Shown in pieces: positions 54,819 to 63,640 of a stretch of DNA of 64,000 nt. The first letter of the stretch is position 1. Each line of letters opens with the position of its first letter. A model generated the notes under the pieces. That model was not told where the DNA came from. It saw only the letters and a list, made by a program, of their open reading frames with translations, and made no database searches. The DNA is from an uncultured Colwellia sp. (GTDB lineage Bacteria > Pseudomonadota > Gammaproteobacteria > Enterobacterales > Alteromonadaceae): assembly GCA_913061475.1 (NCBI GenBank), contig CAJXUN010000001.1, positions 186,001-250,000 on the forward strand, in the 5' to 3' direction. A program made the translations under genes and the position numbers.

Positions 54819-56600
54819 TCAATTTATTATATTTTTCTCTGTGGCCGACATTGGGTGAATAAGCGCTTTGGTTATTTTACCGTGTTGGTGCTTAACTATT
54901 GCTCTGTTAATATAGCCGTTAAATTTACCTGATTGCCATTGCGCTAATAAAGCTGAATTACTGGTTAAATTGGCAATAAGGCCAGTTGATTTTTGTGTCT
55001 TGATCTTTTTATTATTTTGGTTAGCACTAAGACTTTTTTCATTACTAGATTGCTGAATGGCAAAACTCTTTTCCCTGCTTGCGGCAACAATACAAATGCT
55101 ATTTTCCGCAGCTTTCGCGACTAAATTATATTCTACTTCCTGTGGTTCTTGAATATCAAAAGGCACGAGCAACAGATGAATATCATTTAGGGCGAGTACA
55201 TTGACCGTTTCAGCTATATTTGCATCGTCAGCGGTTAACATCACAAGGTTAATATTACCTTGCTCTAAAGGTAATTCGATAATTTTTATCCTATCAGCTA
55301 AGGCAGTCCACTGATATCGTTGGCAAAAATGTAATTGTTGTTGTGTCGCAAAGATCCCATGTTGGCTTATTAATACCGCATGATGGTTGCCATTAAGTAC
55401 TAAACTGGTACAAACATATTGAAAAGGCCGTAATACCGCGCTGACTTGTTGAATAAGTTCAGTGCTCATACGCTCGATGTGCTTTAACGTTTCGCTGTTC
55501 TGAGTGACGGTTTTATCGCCGATAAAAAACAACTCAGGTAATTGAATGATGTCACTGAGGTTATTTTCAATATAATGACAAACGTCTTCAACGGCTTGCT
55601 CGTTTGCTTTATAAGTGGCAAATATAGCGACATTAGCGCTTTCTGGAACCTTATCACCATATTCGTCATCGCGCGTTGTTGGCTGTTTAACCAAGGTTTT
55701 TTCGATATAGAGCTCTGGTCGTTGCTGTTGATTAAAGCGAGTACCATCAGGACGAAGCTTCTTTTTTAGCCCTGCTTCAGCTAAGTTAATATCTGCAAAG
55801 GTATAACCTTCTTTATTGTTCGCTATTTTTGCTAATGTCTTGCCATCTGGTGCTACGATCTGGCTTTGACCGGCACCGACATGATAGTTTTTATCAATAG
55901 TACTGAATGCTAAAAAGCTATCGATAATTTTCGCGCTGTCTCGAACATCTTCGCTGTCTGTGATGGCAAGCAATGCCCCAACTTTATTGGCCGTAGCGGT
56001 AAATACGTTATTTTCAGTGGCTCGAGCGAAGTCGTGTATCTTGCTTTGATCCAACGCGAATGAGTGCTCAGAATTACACAATAACTGGGCGCCATTTAGC
56101 GCTAAATCACGAGATGGCTGAGAAGTATGACCATCACCTATTAACATTCCAAACTCACCAAAAACGGTTGATACCGTTGTTGAAGCTTCATGTGAACAAG
56201 TAAAATAAATATTGTCCTGCTCACTCAAGTTTTTCTTATCGACCTGCTGAACAAGCTCGCCAAGAGGCGAAAATAAACAAGAAGTGATACTAATATTTGA
56301 TTTAATCGAGGCGTTTTGATGATCGCGCGTCATATCTCGACGTAGTGTCAAGTTAAGTACGATGTAACAACCATGTTGTTTAGCTTGCAGTGCTACTTGT
56401 TGTAAAAATTCACTATCAGTTGCCAACGCTTGATGCCAGGCCTCGTTATGATCCGCATAACAAGGTTGTGTATTACAAAACTCTGGCAGTACAATAATCG
56501 CGGGTTTACACGCTGCTGTTTCATTGATCATTCTAAGGCAAGTTGCTAGGTTTTCTTGGCAATTAATAGTTGTGGCAAATTGAGCAACGGCTACTCGCAT
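54819..56600 (-). CDS. Tandem nitrilase-fold protein lacking catalytic cysteines
   Basis: 593 residues with two carbon-nitrogen hydrolase-like domains (about 1-300 and 320-575). In domain 1 the Glu (IIVLPEFCN) and Lys (VDKKNLSEQD) of the E-K-C triad are present, but the Cys position reads LIGDGHTSQPSRDLALNGA, where active enzymes have ICYD. The ending PDGTRFNQQQRPELY is typical. In domain 2 the Glu remains (IIQLPELFF), but Lys (HFCQRYQW) and Cys (LVMLTADDAN) are both replaced. It therefore looks catalytically dead or changed. No signal peptide. Single gene. Confidence 0.82.
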   Translation of the reverse strand: MRVAVAQFATTINCQENLATCLRMINETAACKPAIIVLPEFCNTQPCYADHNEAWHQALATDSEFLQQVALQAKQHGCYIVLNLTLRRDMTRDHQNASIKSNISITSCLFSPLGELVQQVDKKNLSEQDNIYFTCSHEASTTVSTVFGEFGMLIGDGHTSQPSRDLALNGAQLLCNSEHSFALDQSKIHDFARATENNVFTATANKVGALLAITDSEDVRDSAKIIDSFLAFSTIDKNYHVGAGQSQIVAPDGKTLAKIANNKEGYTFADINLAEAGLKKKLRPDGTRFNQQQRPELYIEKTLVKQPTTRDDEYGDKVPESANVAIFATYKANEQAVEDVCHYIENNLSDIIQLPELFFIGDKTVTQNSETLKHIERMSTELIQQVSAVLRPFQYVCTSLVLNGNHHAVLISQHGIFATQQQLHFCQRYQWTALADRIKIIELPLEQGNINLVMLTADDANIAETVNVLALNDIHLLLVPFDIQEPQEVEYNLVAKAAENSICIVAASREKSFAIQQSSNEKSLSANQNNKKIKTQKSTGLIANLTSNSALLAQWQSGKFNGYINRAIVKHQHGKITKALIHPMSATEKNIIN

Positions 56601-59039: not shown

Positions 59040-59223
59040 TAATATAAAGGGCTCAAAGCTAAAATAATTGCCGCTATTTTAGCGTATTTATGGCGCTATA
59101 AGTTAGTAAAAAACCGTTTTTATCAGAATAATACTTCGTCGCGTTAGTTTCGCTAAGCTAGCGCTGAGTTGGTACATTTCATGTAAGCTGTGGTTTAACT
59201 CGCGCATCAAGGTATGTCATTCG

Positions 59224-62200
59224 TTATTTCATCTGGCCTTTGATTAAATTAGCACTATTAGCAAAGCCGGCTAAGGTTGTAGCCATGGCAGCTAAAGAGC
59301 CAAATATGATGAAGAGTGACTCGCCAGAGGTGAGTGCAATTGCCGCTATCCCTAGAAAAATCATCAAGGTTAGCGGTAATTTATAGTTACGCCAAGGACC
59401 TTGATCGGCACTTTTAACAATCATATTTAATGTTGTTTGTGACTCAGCGTTAAGAACAAATTCAGCAAAACTCTGGTTAATTATTTTCAAATGGTCATTA
59501 TCAACTTTGATTAAACCATTAATGGCCAAATGCTCGATAACGATATTATTCATAGGATTTAGTCTGTTGCCCTTTGCTAAATGATATAGGGCAAGCTTCT
59601 CTTCGTTCGAGCACAGCTCCCATTTAAAGCGGAATAAAGCTTCTGAGCACAAATGAATGTAATGCAATGTCGCCCAATGTGGCTTATCACTCGCTTCTAC
59701 ATCAGTGTTTTGTGCGACTTGATTTTTTAAATAACTAAGCTCAGGAAAGTATTCAAGCTCTTCATCTAATACACTTTTATTTACTGACAAGGTTAATTCC
59801 ACTGGCACTTTAACGCTAAAATCTTTTAAACATTCTGACCAGCTTATATATTCAATGTTTTGATTTATGTCCACGTTAACCTCAGGCAATAGCGCTTTCA
59901 TTTCGACTTTTTGCAGACTATTAAAGCCGACTACAACGGTAAAAGACGCGAGGAGTTGAGTATCTACTAAGGTCTTTAGATCGGTTATTAGTGTCAATAG
60001 CGCTAACCTTGAATTGCGATAATTTAAGCATGTTTCAATTTCACAGAGATAAATATTAAGCAACCCGCATTCTTTATCACGGGTAATGCTAATACATAAA
60101 TTTTTCAACTGCTTGCGGTTAGCTTTTAACTCTTGTAAACATGGACTTAATGAGTATAGTTTGGGAAAGTATTTTAGTGTTTCATTTTCATCAAAGTTGG
60201 CTCTATTAATAGAGATAAGCCAGTCGACATTTATCCCCTGTGTTTGTGGCCTATTCATATCTATTTCAAGTTTTGGACTAATAGTGGGCCTGCTGTTTGA
60301 GCTCTGACTGTTGGTCAGCTTTGCTGCTACTATACTCTGAATATATTTTAAAAAGTCTTCTTGGCAGTAAACTCTACCAATTAACACTTTGCGTTGGAAA
60401 TACTCCCAAGCTACCACAAGTAGTGCAAATAGCAGGATATATTTAAAGATGATAAAACCACTAATCGCAACCACTTGACCCTTGGTACTTTCTGGTTTCA
60501 TGCCGCCATCAACTTGTTGATAAAATAAATACATTTGCGCCCATCGCCAAAAATATCTGGTGCCTTCTAGGCTAGATAGACTTGGTAAATCGTCAGGAGT
60601 CACTTCACTGGAGTATCCTTCACAGCGTTCTAAATCCTCAATTTTTATCAACTTATCAGGTGTAACATTGTGTTGCGTTACCGTGTTTGGATACAACATT
60701 AGTGCTATCTTATTAAGTTCGGTCAGTTCAAGATTAGTTTGACTGCATTGATAATTGTGATAATAAGCATTTAAGCTTTTGATCGGTAATAACGCCGTAA
60801 TATGAAAATAAATAATGTGGGTCATGCAAATCAGCAATAAGACTTGCCATAATCTTCTATTTTCTTTGATTTTATATTTAAGCGCGTGAAAAAATACGAT
60901 TAAAACTTCCGATATCACAACCGCGTAAAACACGTGATATATACCTAGTTCACTATCGGTACATAATAGATAAACCTGATTCAATAAAAAAAACAGCATA
61001 TAACCACAAGCGATATAAATACTGAACACTTTCGCCCACTTTTTAAGTTTTGATTTTTTGATTTTCTTCAATTCAGGATACGTATTCAATTTATCTAATA
61101 GCAATTTTAACCTTTGTAGAATAGGGTTATTATTTCGAATCGGTAGATTAAAATTATAGATAATGTAATTAACGCTAAATAAAAAACAAACAATGAAAAG
61201 CATGATAAGACTGAAGCAAATAACGATGTAAAGAAATTCATTGGTCATTAAAGTATCTAAGCTATCATCAGGGTAAAAAATCACGATTGACCACTTATCA
61301 AATGTACTGGCATTAATAAAAAAACGCCCTTCTTTACCATGATAAAAGCCTTTGATCGCCGCTAGGCTTACATCAAGACTATTGTCCAAGCCCGCCTTTA
61401 TCCAATGTTCAACGTTAGAAGTCTCATGACTTGAGTAAAATATATTTTCAACCATCGAACGGTCTTCGTTACTATGAAAAAGTACATCGCCGTCATTTCG
61501 ATTGATGATCATATAAGTAAAATCAAGTGTACTCGGCTTCGCTAGACTTAAGCTTTTAAACAATACATCTGCGCCTAAGACATAACTTTTCAGCTCATTA
61601 GTATCTGTGGTTGTACATTCATTGATATTGCACATCGGCATAGAGATTGTGGTGCCAAGCGTGCCATCTGCAACATTTAACAAACGTTGGATATGGACGT
61701 TTTTATAGCGAGATTTTTTATCGCTATCAGGTGAATCGTTATCTTTTTTAAATGCTATTGTGCTACCCTGCTGATCTCTGACCAATTGATAATAGGCACG
61801 ATGAGAAAGGTTATCTGCTGTTGGAAGATTATTTATTTCACTGAATGAAATAGAAGGCATTGAGGTAATACCTTCGCTGTTGACGGTAAATATAGACAGC
61901 AGTCCATTAGGCAATACGGGCAGATCAGGAAATACCCGCGGATCAGGCAAATTAAGATGGCTTTGAAAGGGCTCTATACTTACTGCTAAGTTGTCTTTAT
62001 AAAAACTTGCTGCTTTGGCCCCACCTTTAGCGTTTTTGTTAAGCTTGTGTAATATAATACTAAGCTCATCAATGTTGATATTTTGTTTTATTTCGTTATC
62101 TTCGTCTTTTAACGCAGCGCTTTGGTTGATTAATATTTTATCTATCCCTAACGCTTTATCGACTAAGTCGCTGGGTAATTTATAAGTCAGAGACTCATCC

Positions 62201-63444
62201 TTATCTCCAACATTATCCTGACATTTATCTTTTGTTTGACATACATCTGGTAAATTTATATTTGCGTTTTTTAAGTTTGAGTAAACATTGTGATAAAAGC
62301 CTCGATATTTTTCTAGTGTGCTAAAAGCCGCGTCGATCTCTTTTGCTAATTTACTATCAATTGCCGTCAAATAATCAATAGCTTGTTGATCTTTATCCGA
62401 TTGAAGAATGGCTTTTTGCATATTAGCCAAGAGCAAAGCGACTAAAACAATAAATAAAAAGTAACTGATTAACTGAATACTATACCTATGGGTTCGACTG
62501 ACAACATGATTTTTAGGTAACATAAATAACCTTAAAATCACCCAACAAAATAACACACAGGCGATAGTGACAACTAACAGCGTTAAATCCCAGTAACCGG
62601 TACCATTAATGGCCAGCTTTTGTTTCGGCAGTAAACCAACCAAGTACAAATGCTGGTTATCAGCCAGCGCTCCTGCCTGATCAAAGATGCCAATATTGAC
62701 TTTAAATGGAAACATAAACACACGAAAATCACCACTAGACAAGGTTAAATCGATATCGGTACTCATATTGGATAACGCTTGATTTTGTTCATTATTCTTA
62801 GTTTTTTCTTTAGAGAAATTCCATCGTGATTGCGCTTTGTTTTTTGCAATAGCTTCTTGAATTGACGCAATATCGACAATTGAAATGCGTTTGTCTTTAC
62901 CGACACTTGATAACACTTTTTTGTCAGCATTAACCAGTAAGTACTGGCTAAAACCTTGTGTTGTTGCTGGCATAATCGATGTTAATGACAAGTAGGCGTA
63001 TTCGGTGCGGGGAATGCTATCAGTCTTGGAATTATCGGTTTTAATACTCTTCGAATTATTGCTATCTGCGTTGCTCTTTTCATCACCCGCATTAGCTTTA
63101 CAAAAAACCACGACTTGATCGTGGGCCAACTTGTATTCAAATTTTTTGCTCAAACACTTAGAGCCGTTGTCCCGATAGCTTGGTAAAATTGCTCGTATGG
63201 CGTTGAAATTGGCATTTTTATTTACCGAGCTTTTGAGTTGATTTAATGAAATGTTAAGTTTATTAGAGGCTTCATACAATACACGATAGTAGTCTTGATT
63301 GAGTGCACTATCTTTGACTGTTGAAAATTTGTGATAAATAAATGTTAATACCATCAAACTAATAACAACGACAACATTACCGAGAGCTATTTTTTTTGGT
63401 TGATTAACTGCTTTATTACTTTCAGTGGTTGCTTTAGAAGACAT
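59224..63444 (-). CDS. Giant ten-helix membrane protein with extracytoplasmic sensor-like regions, unknown function
   Basis: 1,406 residues. About ten membrane helices lie near residues 22-42, 285-308, 320-345, 735-765, 808-830, 838-855, 865-888, 988-1013, 1355-1373 and 1380-1398. Two large outside regions follow: 43-285, and 346-730, whose end (DFTYMIINRNDGDVLFHSN, KWSIVIFYPDD) is Cache/PAS-like. A cytoplasmic part (1014-1350) has a degenerate NTPase-like stretch (IYLCEIETCL, SFTVVVGFNSL) and a winged-helix-like segment (SNEEKLALYHLAKGNRLNP...EHLAINGLIKV) before the last helical hairpin. No kinase, GGDEF or Walker A motif was seen. AAGGATG precedes the ATG. Its function is not known. Confidence 0.75.
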   Translation of the reverse strand: MSSKATTESNKAVNQPKKIALGNVVVVISLMVLTFIYHKFSTVKDSALNQDYYRVLYEASNKLNISLNQLKSSVNKNANFNAIRAILPSYRDNGSKCLSKKFEYKLAHDQVVVFCKANAGDEKSNADSNNSKSIKTDNSKTDSIPRTEYAYLSLTSIMPATTQGFSQYLLVNADKKVLSSVGKDKRISIVDIASIQEAIAKNKAQSRWNFSKEKTKNNEQNQALSNMSTDIDLTLSSGDFRVFMFPFKVNIGIFDQAGALADNQHLYLVGLLPKQKLAINGTGYWDLTLLVVTIACVLFCWVILRLFMLPKNHVVSRTHRYSIQLISYFLFIVLVALLLANMQKAILQSDKDQQAIDYLTAIDSKLAKEIDAAFSTLEKYRGFYHNVYSNLKNANINLPDVCQTKDKCQDNVGDKDESLTYKLPSDLVDKALGIDKILINQSAALKDEDNEIKQNINIDELSIILHKLNKNAKGGAKAASFYKDNLAVSIEPFQSHLNLPDPRVFPDLPVLPNGLLSIFTVNSEGITSMPSISFSEINNLPTADNLSHRAYYQLVRDQQGSTIAFKKDNDSPDSDKKSRYKNVHIQRLLNVADGTLGTTISMPMCNINECTTTDTNELKSYVLGADVLFKSLSLAKPSTLDFTYMIINRNDGDVLFHSNEDRSMVENIFYSSHETSNVEHWIKAGLDNSLDVSLAAIKGFYHGKEGRFFINASTFDKWSIVIFYPDDSLDTLMTNEFLYIVICFSLIMLFIVCFLFSVNYIIYNFNLPIRNNNPILQRLKLLLDKLNTYPELKKIKKSKLKKWAKVFSIYIACGYMLFFLLNQVYLLCTDSELGIYHVFYAVVISEVLIVFFHALKYKIKENRRLWQVLLLICMTHIIYFHITALLPIKSLNAYYHNYQCSQTNLELTELNKIALMLYPNTVTQHNVTPDKLIKIEDLERCEGYSSEVTPDDLPSLSSLEGTRYFWRWAQMYLFYQQVDGGMKPESTKGQVVAISGFIIFKYILLFALLVVAWEYFQRKVLIGRVYCQEDFLKYIQSIVAAKLTNSQSSNSRPTISPKLEIDMNRPQTQGINVDWLISINRANFDENETLKYFPKLYSLSPCLQELKANRKQLKNLCISITRDKECGLLNIYLCEIETCLNYRNSRLALLTLITDLKTLVDTQLLASFTVVVGFNSLQKVEMKALLPEVNVDINQNIEYISWSECLKDFSVKVPVELTLSVNKSVLDEELEYFPELSYLKNQVAQNTDVEASDKPHWATLHYIHLCSEALFRFKWELCSNEEKLALYHLAKGNRLNPMNNIVIEHLAINGLIKVDNDHLKIINQSFAEFVLNAESQTTLNMIVKSADQGPWRNYKLPLTLMIFLGIAAIALTSGESLFIIFGSLAAMATTLAGFANSANLIKGQMK

Positions 63445-63578
63445 CGACGCATCCTTGTGGTCTTTTTTTGCACCTGCTTAATAATCGTACAACAGGGTAA
63501 AAAGTCAAGTTATGCCGTTAAATGGGATTTCTGTGTAGACATTATGTCATAAGCGCTTAAGCAAATTTATGCGGTCTT

Positions 63579-63609
63579 TTATTGATCTGCTTATTGATTG
63601 CTTATTGAT
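63579..63609. promoter_or_regulatory. Three TTATTGAT direct repeats at helical spacing
   Basis: TTATTGAT occurs at 63579, 63591 and 63602, 12 and 11 bp apart, so all three face the same side of the helix. They lie about 135-165 bp upstream of the giant membrane protein start. A regulator-binding site is possible but not shown. Confidence 0.4.
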
Positions 63610-63640
63610 GTAATTTGTCGATATCCAAGCCTAATGAAAG

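Follow-up and report, generated by a model that had tools for sequence, protein, structure and literature searches.

Here we describe P0001, a 1,406-residue polytopic membrane protein encoded in a 64,000-nucleotide stretch of contig CAJXUN010000001.1 from an uncultured Colwellia sp. (the window, meaning the whole stretch analysed, in which all positions below are counted). Our preferred reading, to which we give a probability of roughly 0.55, is that P0001 is a receptor in which a Cache domain outside the membrane controls a nucleotide-independent STAND-like switch, with a winged helix and a two-helix hairpin as its output. What the computation establishes directly is the order of the parts along the chain, the absence of a Walker A motif and the pattern of conservation. 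The initial annotation, made from the sequence alone, had placed an open reading frame (ORF) of this length at 59224..63444 and proposed that its product may be a new type of sensor; the frame is intact, with 1,406 codons, an ATG start and exactly these coordinates, to which we add the minus strand, and a new type of sensor is a plausible description. The gene and the parts of its product (TM, transmembrane helix; NTPase, nucleoside triphosphatase) are as follows.

59224..63444, minus strand, P0001 gene, 1,406-residue polytopic membrane protein (ORF list; relatives)
63316..63399, minus strand, predicted TM1, residues 16-43 (hydropathy)
62590..63315, minus strand, predicted first extracytoplasmic region, residues 44 to about 285 (hydropathy; no credible profile match)
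62398..62589, minus strand, predicted TM2-TM3, residues 286-349 (hydropathy, 281-349)
61240..62397, minus strand, predicted second extracytoplasmic region, residues 350 to about 735 (last part, 510-735, a probable distant relative of dCache_1)
60781..61239, minus strand, predicted TM4-TM7 block, residues about 736-888 (hydropathy)
60475..60780, minus strand, predicted third extracytoplasmic region, residues 889-990 (hydropathy and alignment)
60394..60474, minus strand, predicted TM8, residues 991-1017 (hydropathy, 988-1017, and AlphaFold model)
59782..60282, minus strand, putative alpha/beta NTPase-like domain without Walker A, residues 1055-1221 (alignment, model, structure comparison)
59401..59781, minus strand, predicted helical part and winged helix, residues 1222-1348, winged-helix core about 1280-1333 (alignment, model, structure comparison)
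59230..59397, minus strand, predicted C-terminal membrane hairpin, residues about 1350-1405 (hydropathy, 1353-1396)

Judged from its relatives, P0001 is not a chance ORF, because members of two clades align with it and the ratio of nonsynonymous to synonymous substitution rates (dN/dS) is low in close pairs. The tree of 35 distinct full-length proteins, built by a quick method without bootstrap, separates clade A (23 rows, P0001 included) from clade B (12 rows, with long branches flagged). Clade A relatives align with P0001 over most of its length, at about 27-41% identity in the best segments, and clade B relatives show 15-18% identity; of five close pairs, four allowed dN/dS to be computed, giving 0.04-0.27, and in most comparisons dS was close to saturation or had reached it. 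By these searches P0001 is outside every family in the libraries used, having no match with an E of 1 or less in Pfam, NCBIfam or PADLOC, and the common output domains looked for in the same three libraries were not found, as the initial annotation had anticipated. The NCBIfam scan of 13 family members returned a single member at E 0.048, which we judged to be chance, and PDB sequences searched with alignments A1, A5 and A10 yielded no relative that we find credible.

The support for a STAND-like cytoplasmic part is modest, as it is for the NTPase-like fold of residues 1055-1221 taken separately, while the winged-helix fold is well supported by the model. AlphaFold gave the winged helix predicted local distance difference test scores (pLDDT) of 88-93 and most of the alpha/beta part scores of 77-94, and in the structure comparison (VIA) 13 of the 50 listed rows align within model positions 314-621, all 13 of which we take to be STAND proteins; what is absent from that list proves nothing, as the tool itself notes. 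The degenerate NTPase-like and winged-helix-like part that had been read from the sequence thus gains modest support in its first half and good support in its second. In STAND NTPases (CED-4, plant NLRs, the archaeal 2qen and 2fna) an alpha/beta domain, a helical part and a winged helix follow one another in the order that the model suggests for P0001; such a winged helix is a structural part of STAND proteins, and in P0001 too it follows the NTPase-like part. Unlike them, the P0001 family matches the Walker A motif ([AG]x4GK[ST]) in 0 of the 35 distinct full-length members, carries the module between membrane helices and has a predicted extracytoplasmic sensor, with no repeat sensor domain seen in P0001. 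By eye, most members have an acidic residue after the strand where a Walker B motif might lie. MalT of E. coli is a soluble STAND regulator with an active nucleotide site and a DNA-binding output, whereas P0001 is membrane-bound and lacks Walker A; the best hhalign segment of MalT against alignment A8 was 297-362, presumably its winged-helix end, at a score not above shuffled controls, and alignments A5, A6 and A8 gave nothing clearly above shuffles against MalT and seven neighbouring E. coli proteins. Large proteins of Bacteroidota that retain an intact P-loop may end in a similar winged helix and hairpin, which we treat as a lead only.

The winged helix and the two-helix hairpin are the most conserved parts of P0001. 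At least 22 of the 23 clade A members keep 28 of the 83 winged-helix columns, 14 of the 61 hairpin columns and 2 of the 153 columns of the TM4-TM7 block, and 14 of those winged-helix columns, with just one from the hairpin, persist in 11 or all 12 of the clade B members too. dN, the safer measure because dS was saturated in many comparisons, was lowest among the parts in the winged helix for four of the five close pairs and in the hairpin for the fifth.

The relation of the second extracytoplasmic region to dCache domains is supported by profile comparison, but modestly. In its last part (residues 510-735, the Cache2 region), dCache_1 (PF02743) has matches with an E no higher than 1 in 10 of 25 members. 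The best has E 4.5e-8 and aligns to profile positions 69-238 of 240, and other families match at most 3 of the 25. The curated dCache_1 cut-off was reached by no member seen (best 33.4 bits against 45) and the Cache2 region of P0001 itself gave no match to dCache_1. When ten Cache2 regions were taken singly, three of six from clade A and none of four from clade B matched, none above the cut-off, and as whole proteins 2 of 13 members matched. In its output part P0001 is unlike the kinases, chemoreceptors and cyclases that carry dCache_1 sensors. Conserved in the region are R549, Y551, N590, G652, H657, Y701 and W718, clade A conserving R549 and Y551 along with D626. In a by-eye alignment, R549, Y551 and D626 may sit at R126, W128 and D173 of the dCache_1AA amino-acid motif, which is Y121, R126, W128, Y129 and D173 in PctA numbering (PMC10104139); the tryptophan position is Y in the P0001 family and no conserved counterpart of Y121 was recognised. 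The match of the Cache profile to PDB 7k5n (E 2.5e-5 with A7, 0.0064 with A9) is partly an artefact, its score being inflated because the family motif LVENLY resembles the tobacco etch virus (TEV) tag ENLYFQG of PDB constructs; weaker matches were 3lic (0.12) and 6pxy (0.38). A 1,874-residue ORF of the same genome with a weak dCache match is, by eye, a substrate-binding-protein/sensor hybrid and not a relative.

Hydropathy gives about ten membrane helices and three extracytoplasmic regions (44-288, 350-730 and 889-990), whose sidedness is our assignment. The initial annotation had counted two big extracytoplasmic regions and called them Cache-like: both are seen, but the count was short of a third at 889-990 (where C900 and C941 each occur in 20 of the 23 clade A members), and a Cache-like character has profile support in the second region only. 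No Pfam family matched the first region in more than 1 of 23 members, the best single match (GxGYxYP_N, E 2.6e-4) being taken as chance; in clade B proteins L065, L069 and L036 this region is longer by some hundred residues, which by eye look like coiled coil. Within the TM4-TM7 block hydropathy places TM4 at 731-767 and TM5-7 at 803-888, and the AlphaFold helices lie in similar places at low to middling pLDDT. The final helical hairpin, also proposed at the outset, is found by hydropathy and is modelled as two helices with pLDDT of only 35-59.

The Colwellia genome itself holds one P0001 copy at E up to 0.01. At E 0.001 a match is present in 13 of 98 related genomes (own included): the own genome, five with full-length relatives (G006, G009, G020, G024, G052) and a further seven (G016, G029, G037, G045, G058, G071, G077) whose form is more distant and matches best over about the last 150 residues. 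A scan of genome contigs gave no loci with the single P0001 protein and, with the 13-member alignment, 32 loci from 39 pattern matches, in Paraglaciecola, Aliiglaciecola, Agaribacter, Aestuariibacter, Lacimicrobium, Neptunicella, Arsukibacterium and Nitrosomonas; the distant branch includes Colwellia, Aliikangiella, Rheinheimera and others. Three Nitrosomonas rows are nested in a seven-row group with Aliiglaciecola and Agaribacter (97 in the Shimodaira-Hasegawa-like approximate likelihood-ratio test, SH-aLRT), which suggests transfer of the gene between the distant Alteromonadaceae and Nitrosomonas. The Nitrosomonas copies are L043, L047, L063 and L064, L047 being split in two ORFs and left out of the tree.

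When sampled widely the family appears to be rare. The initial annotation had proposed that SNEEKLALYHLAKG followed by a hairpin recurs in other large bacterial membrane proteins; it does recur within the P0001 family, but outside it nothing except remnants, chance matches and one weak unread match came from the genomes sampled (398 of the phylum, 295 of the order and 369 of the class). The C-terminal profile matched five of the phylum genomes (three real, one remnant in G018, one chance) and 12 of the order genomes (nine intact, two remnants in G018 and G559, one chance), and the clade B C-terminus matched, in the class, its own genome and the weak unread one. The Cache profile at E 1e-8 matched the own genome only among 274 class genomes, and the L037 protein matched itself and G077 among 59 genomes. 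L075 (deacetylase-like) and L086 (NhaC-like) were rejected as chance on reading by eye, and L096 is an unread match at E 0.003. Plasmids and phages gave no match at 1e-3 (the C-terminus of a relative gave one at E 10, which we took as chance) and none was found in viral contigs. Decayed copies were found too: L091 (G559:C91, 5242-7456) retains pieces of residues 43-385 and about 1023-1402 with the middle missing, about 4 kb from an orthologue of the helicase that adjoins P0001; L038 (G029:C23, 7710-8054) is what is left of a clade A C-terminus, most similar (44-45%) to the copies in Paraglaciecola arctica and Neptunicella, and its genome holds an intact clade B gene as well; and G018 holds a 41-residue clade B remnant.

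The P0001 gene has a G+C content of 35-38%, inside the range of its flanks, and lies between genes read from the sequence as an iron-type alcohol dehydrogenase (upstream) and a DEAD-box helicase (downstream). Two further features concern this setting.

63481..63508, minus strand, promoter-like site TTGACT-16-GATTAT (consensus match only)
59130..63632 (approximate), no strand, segment present here and missing from two sister species that share the neighbours (flank alignment)

A terminator-like hairpin after the dehydrogenase and this promoter-like site would fit a single-gene unit, although promoter-like sites were rarer in the scan (11) than in shuffles (mean 18.8). The helicase was found in 14 of 17 genomes of the genus, own included. 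Two of these, G002 (L113) and G004 (L112), share the dehydrogenase, the peptidase and one more neighbour with the window (83-88% identity between the proteins) but lack the P0001 gene, and their dehydrogenase and helicase stand just 260-275 bp or so apart; the other eleven have different neighbours beside the helicase. On one side the flanks can be aligned as far as the terminator, on the other across the roughly 100 bp that precede the helicase, and neither end of the P0001 gene (600 bases each) matched the site above shuffles. On this alignment we regard the site as a clean empty one and P0001 as a single-gene presence/absence unit. No operon partner was seen among 44 family-bearing loci. 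Of these, 14 have a small divergent gene, 14 have recD with recB (by eye) and 12 have both (nine distinct, three contigs being counted twice), and since these genes do not always adjoin the family gene they point to a shared place and not to an operon. Elsewhere in the window, at 54819-56600, a 593-residue ORF appears by eye to join two nitrilase-like halves in one chain.

If P0001 is a receptor, the dCache-type domain would sense something outside the inner membrane, probably joined by the other two extracytoplasmic regions, and the membrane helices would pass the change to the STAND-like module. This module would be a ligand-driven conformational or oligomerisation switch working without ATP turnover, because it has lost the nucleotide-binding loop, and the winged helix and membrane hairpin would form the output surface, the likeliest routes being self-association or the recruitment of a partner encoded elsewhere. 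Sidedness, sensing, signal transfer and output are all steps that we infer.

Being the most conserved part and confidently modelled, the winged helix could instead belong to a membrane-tethered transcription regulator, binding DNA at the membrane on a Cache signal in the manner of ToxR and CadC. We consider this unlikely, as the domain has a membrane anchor at either end (TM8 before it, the hairpin after it), few basic residues are seen by eye in the clade A helix that precedes the wing (about NxxMIEHLALNG), a winged helix has a structural role in STAND proteins and no gene consistently adjoins the family loci. An NLR-like immune or self-killing device, whose activated STAND-like part oligomerises so that the hairpin perturbs the membrane, would accord with the structural likeness to resistosome and apoptosome proteins, the hairpin itself, the presence/absence in sister species with decayed copies and the probable transfer to Nitrosomonas. 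Yet P0001 has no PADLOC match, no defence genes were recognised by eye among the neighbours (which were not scanned with PADLOC), extracellular Cache sensing is not known to be the usual trigger and Walker A is absent, making such a device quite improbable. Least probable to us is a transporter or channel with sensory ectodomains and a merely structural cytoplasmic part: ten predicted membrane helices, the TM4-TM7 block among them, would suit it, but that block is the least conserved by column count and no transporter family of Pfam or NCBIfam was matched.

Searches of open papers brought up nothing on this architecture, which is no proof of its absence. A bolder extension of the receptor reading, and a doubtful one, is that P0001 represents transmembrane NLR-like receptors in which a Cache sensor drives an ATP-independent pseudo-STAND module with the hairpin as effector, a cell-surface counterpart of resistosome-type switches. 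Should P0001 be the receptor that we propose, Cache sensors and STAND switches, two widespread building blocks, would be joined in one membrane protein, the 35 members compared would all have a STAND-like switch that works with no nucleotide loop, and Cache receptors would gain a new output class. Whether an outside ligand can directly drive STAND-type switching would then become testable, and the presence/absence of this single gene in sister species allows a clean comparison.
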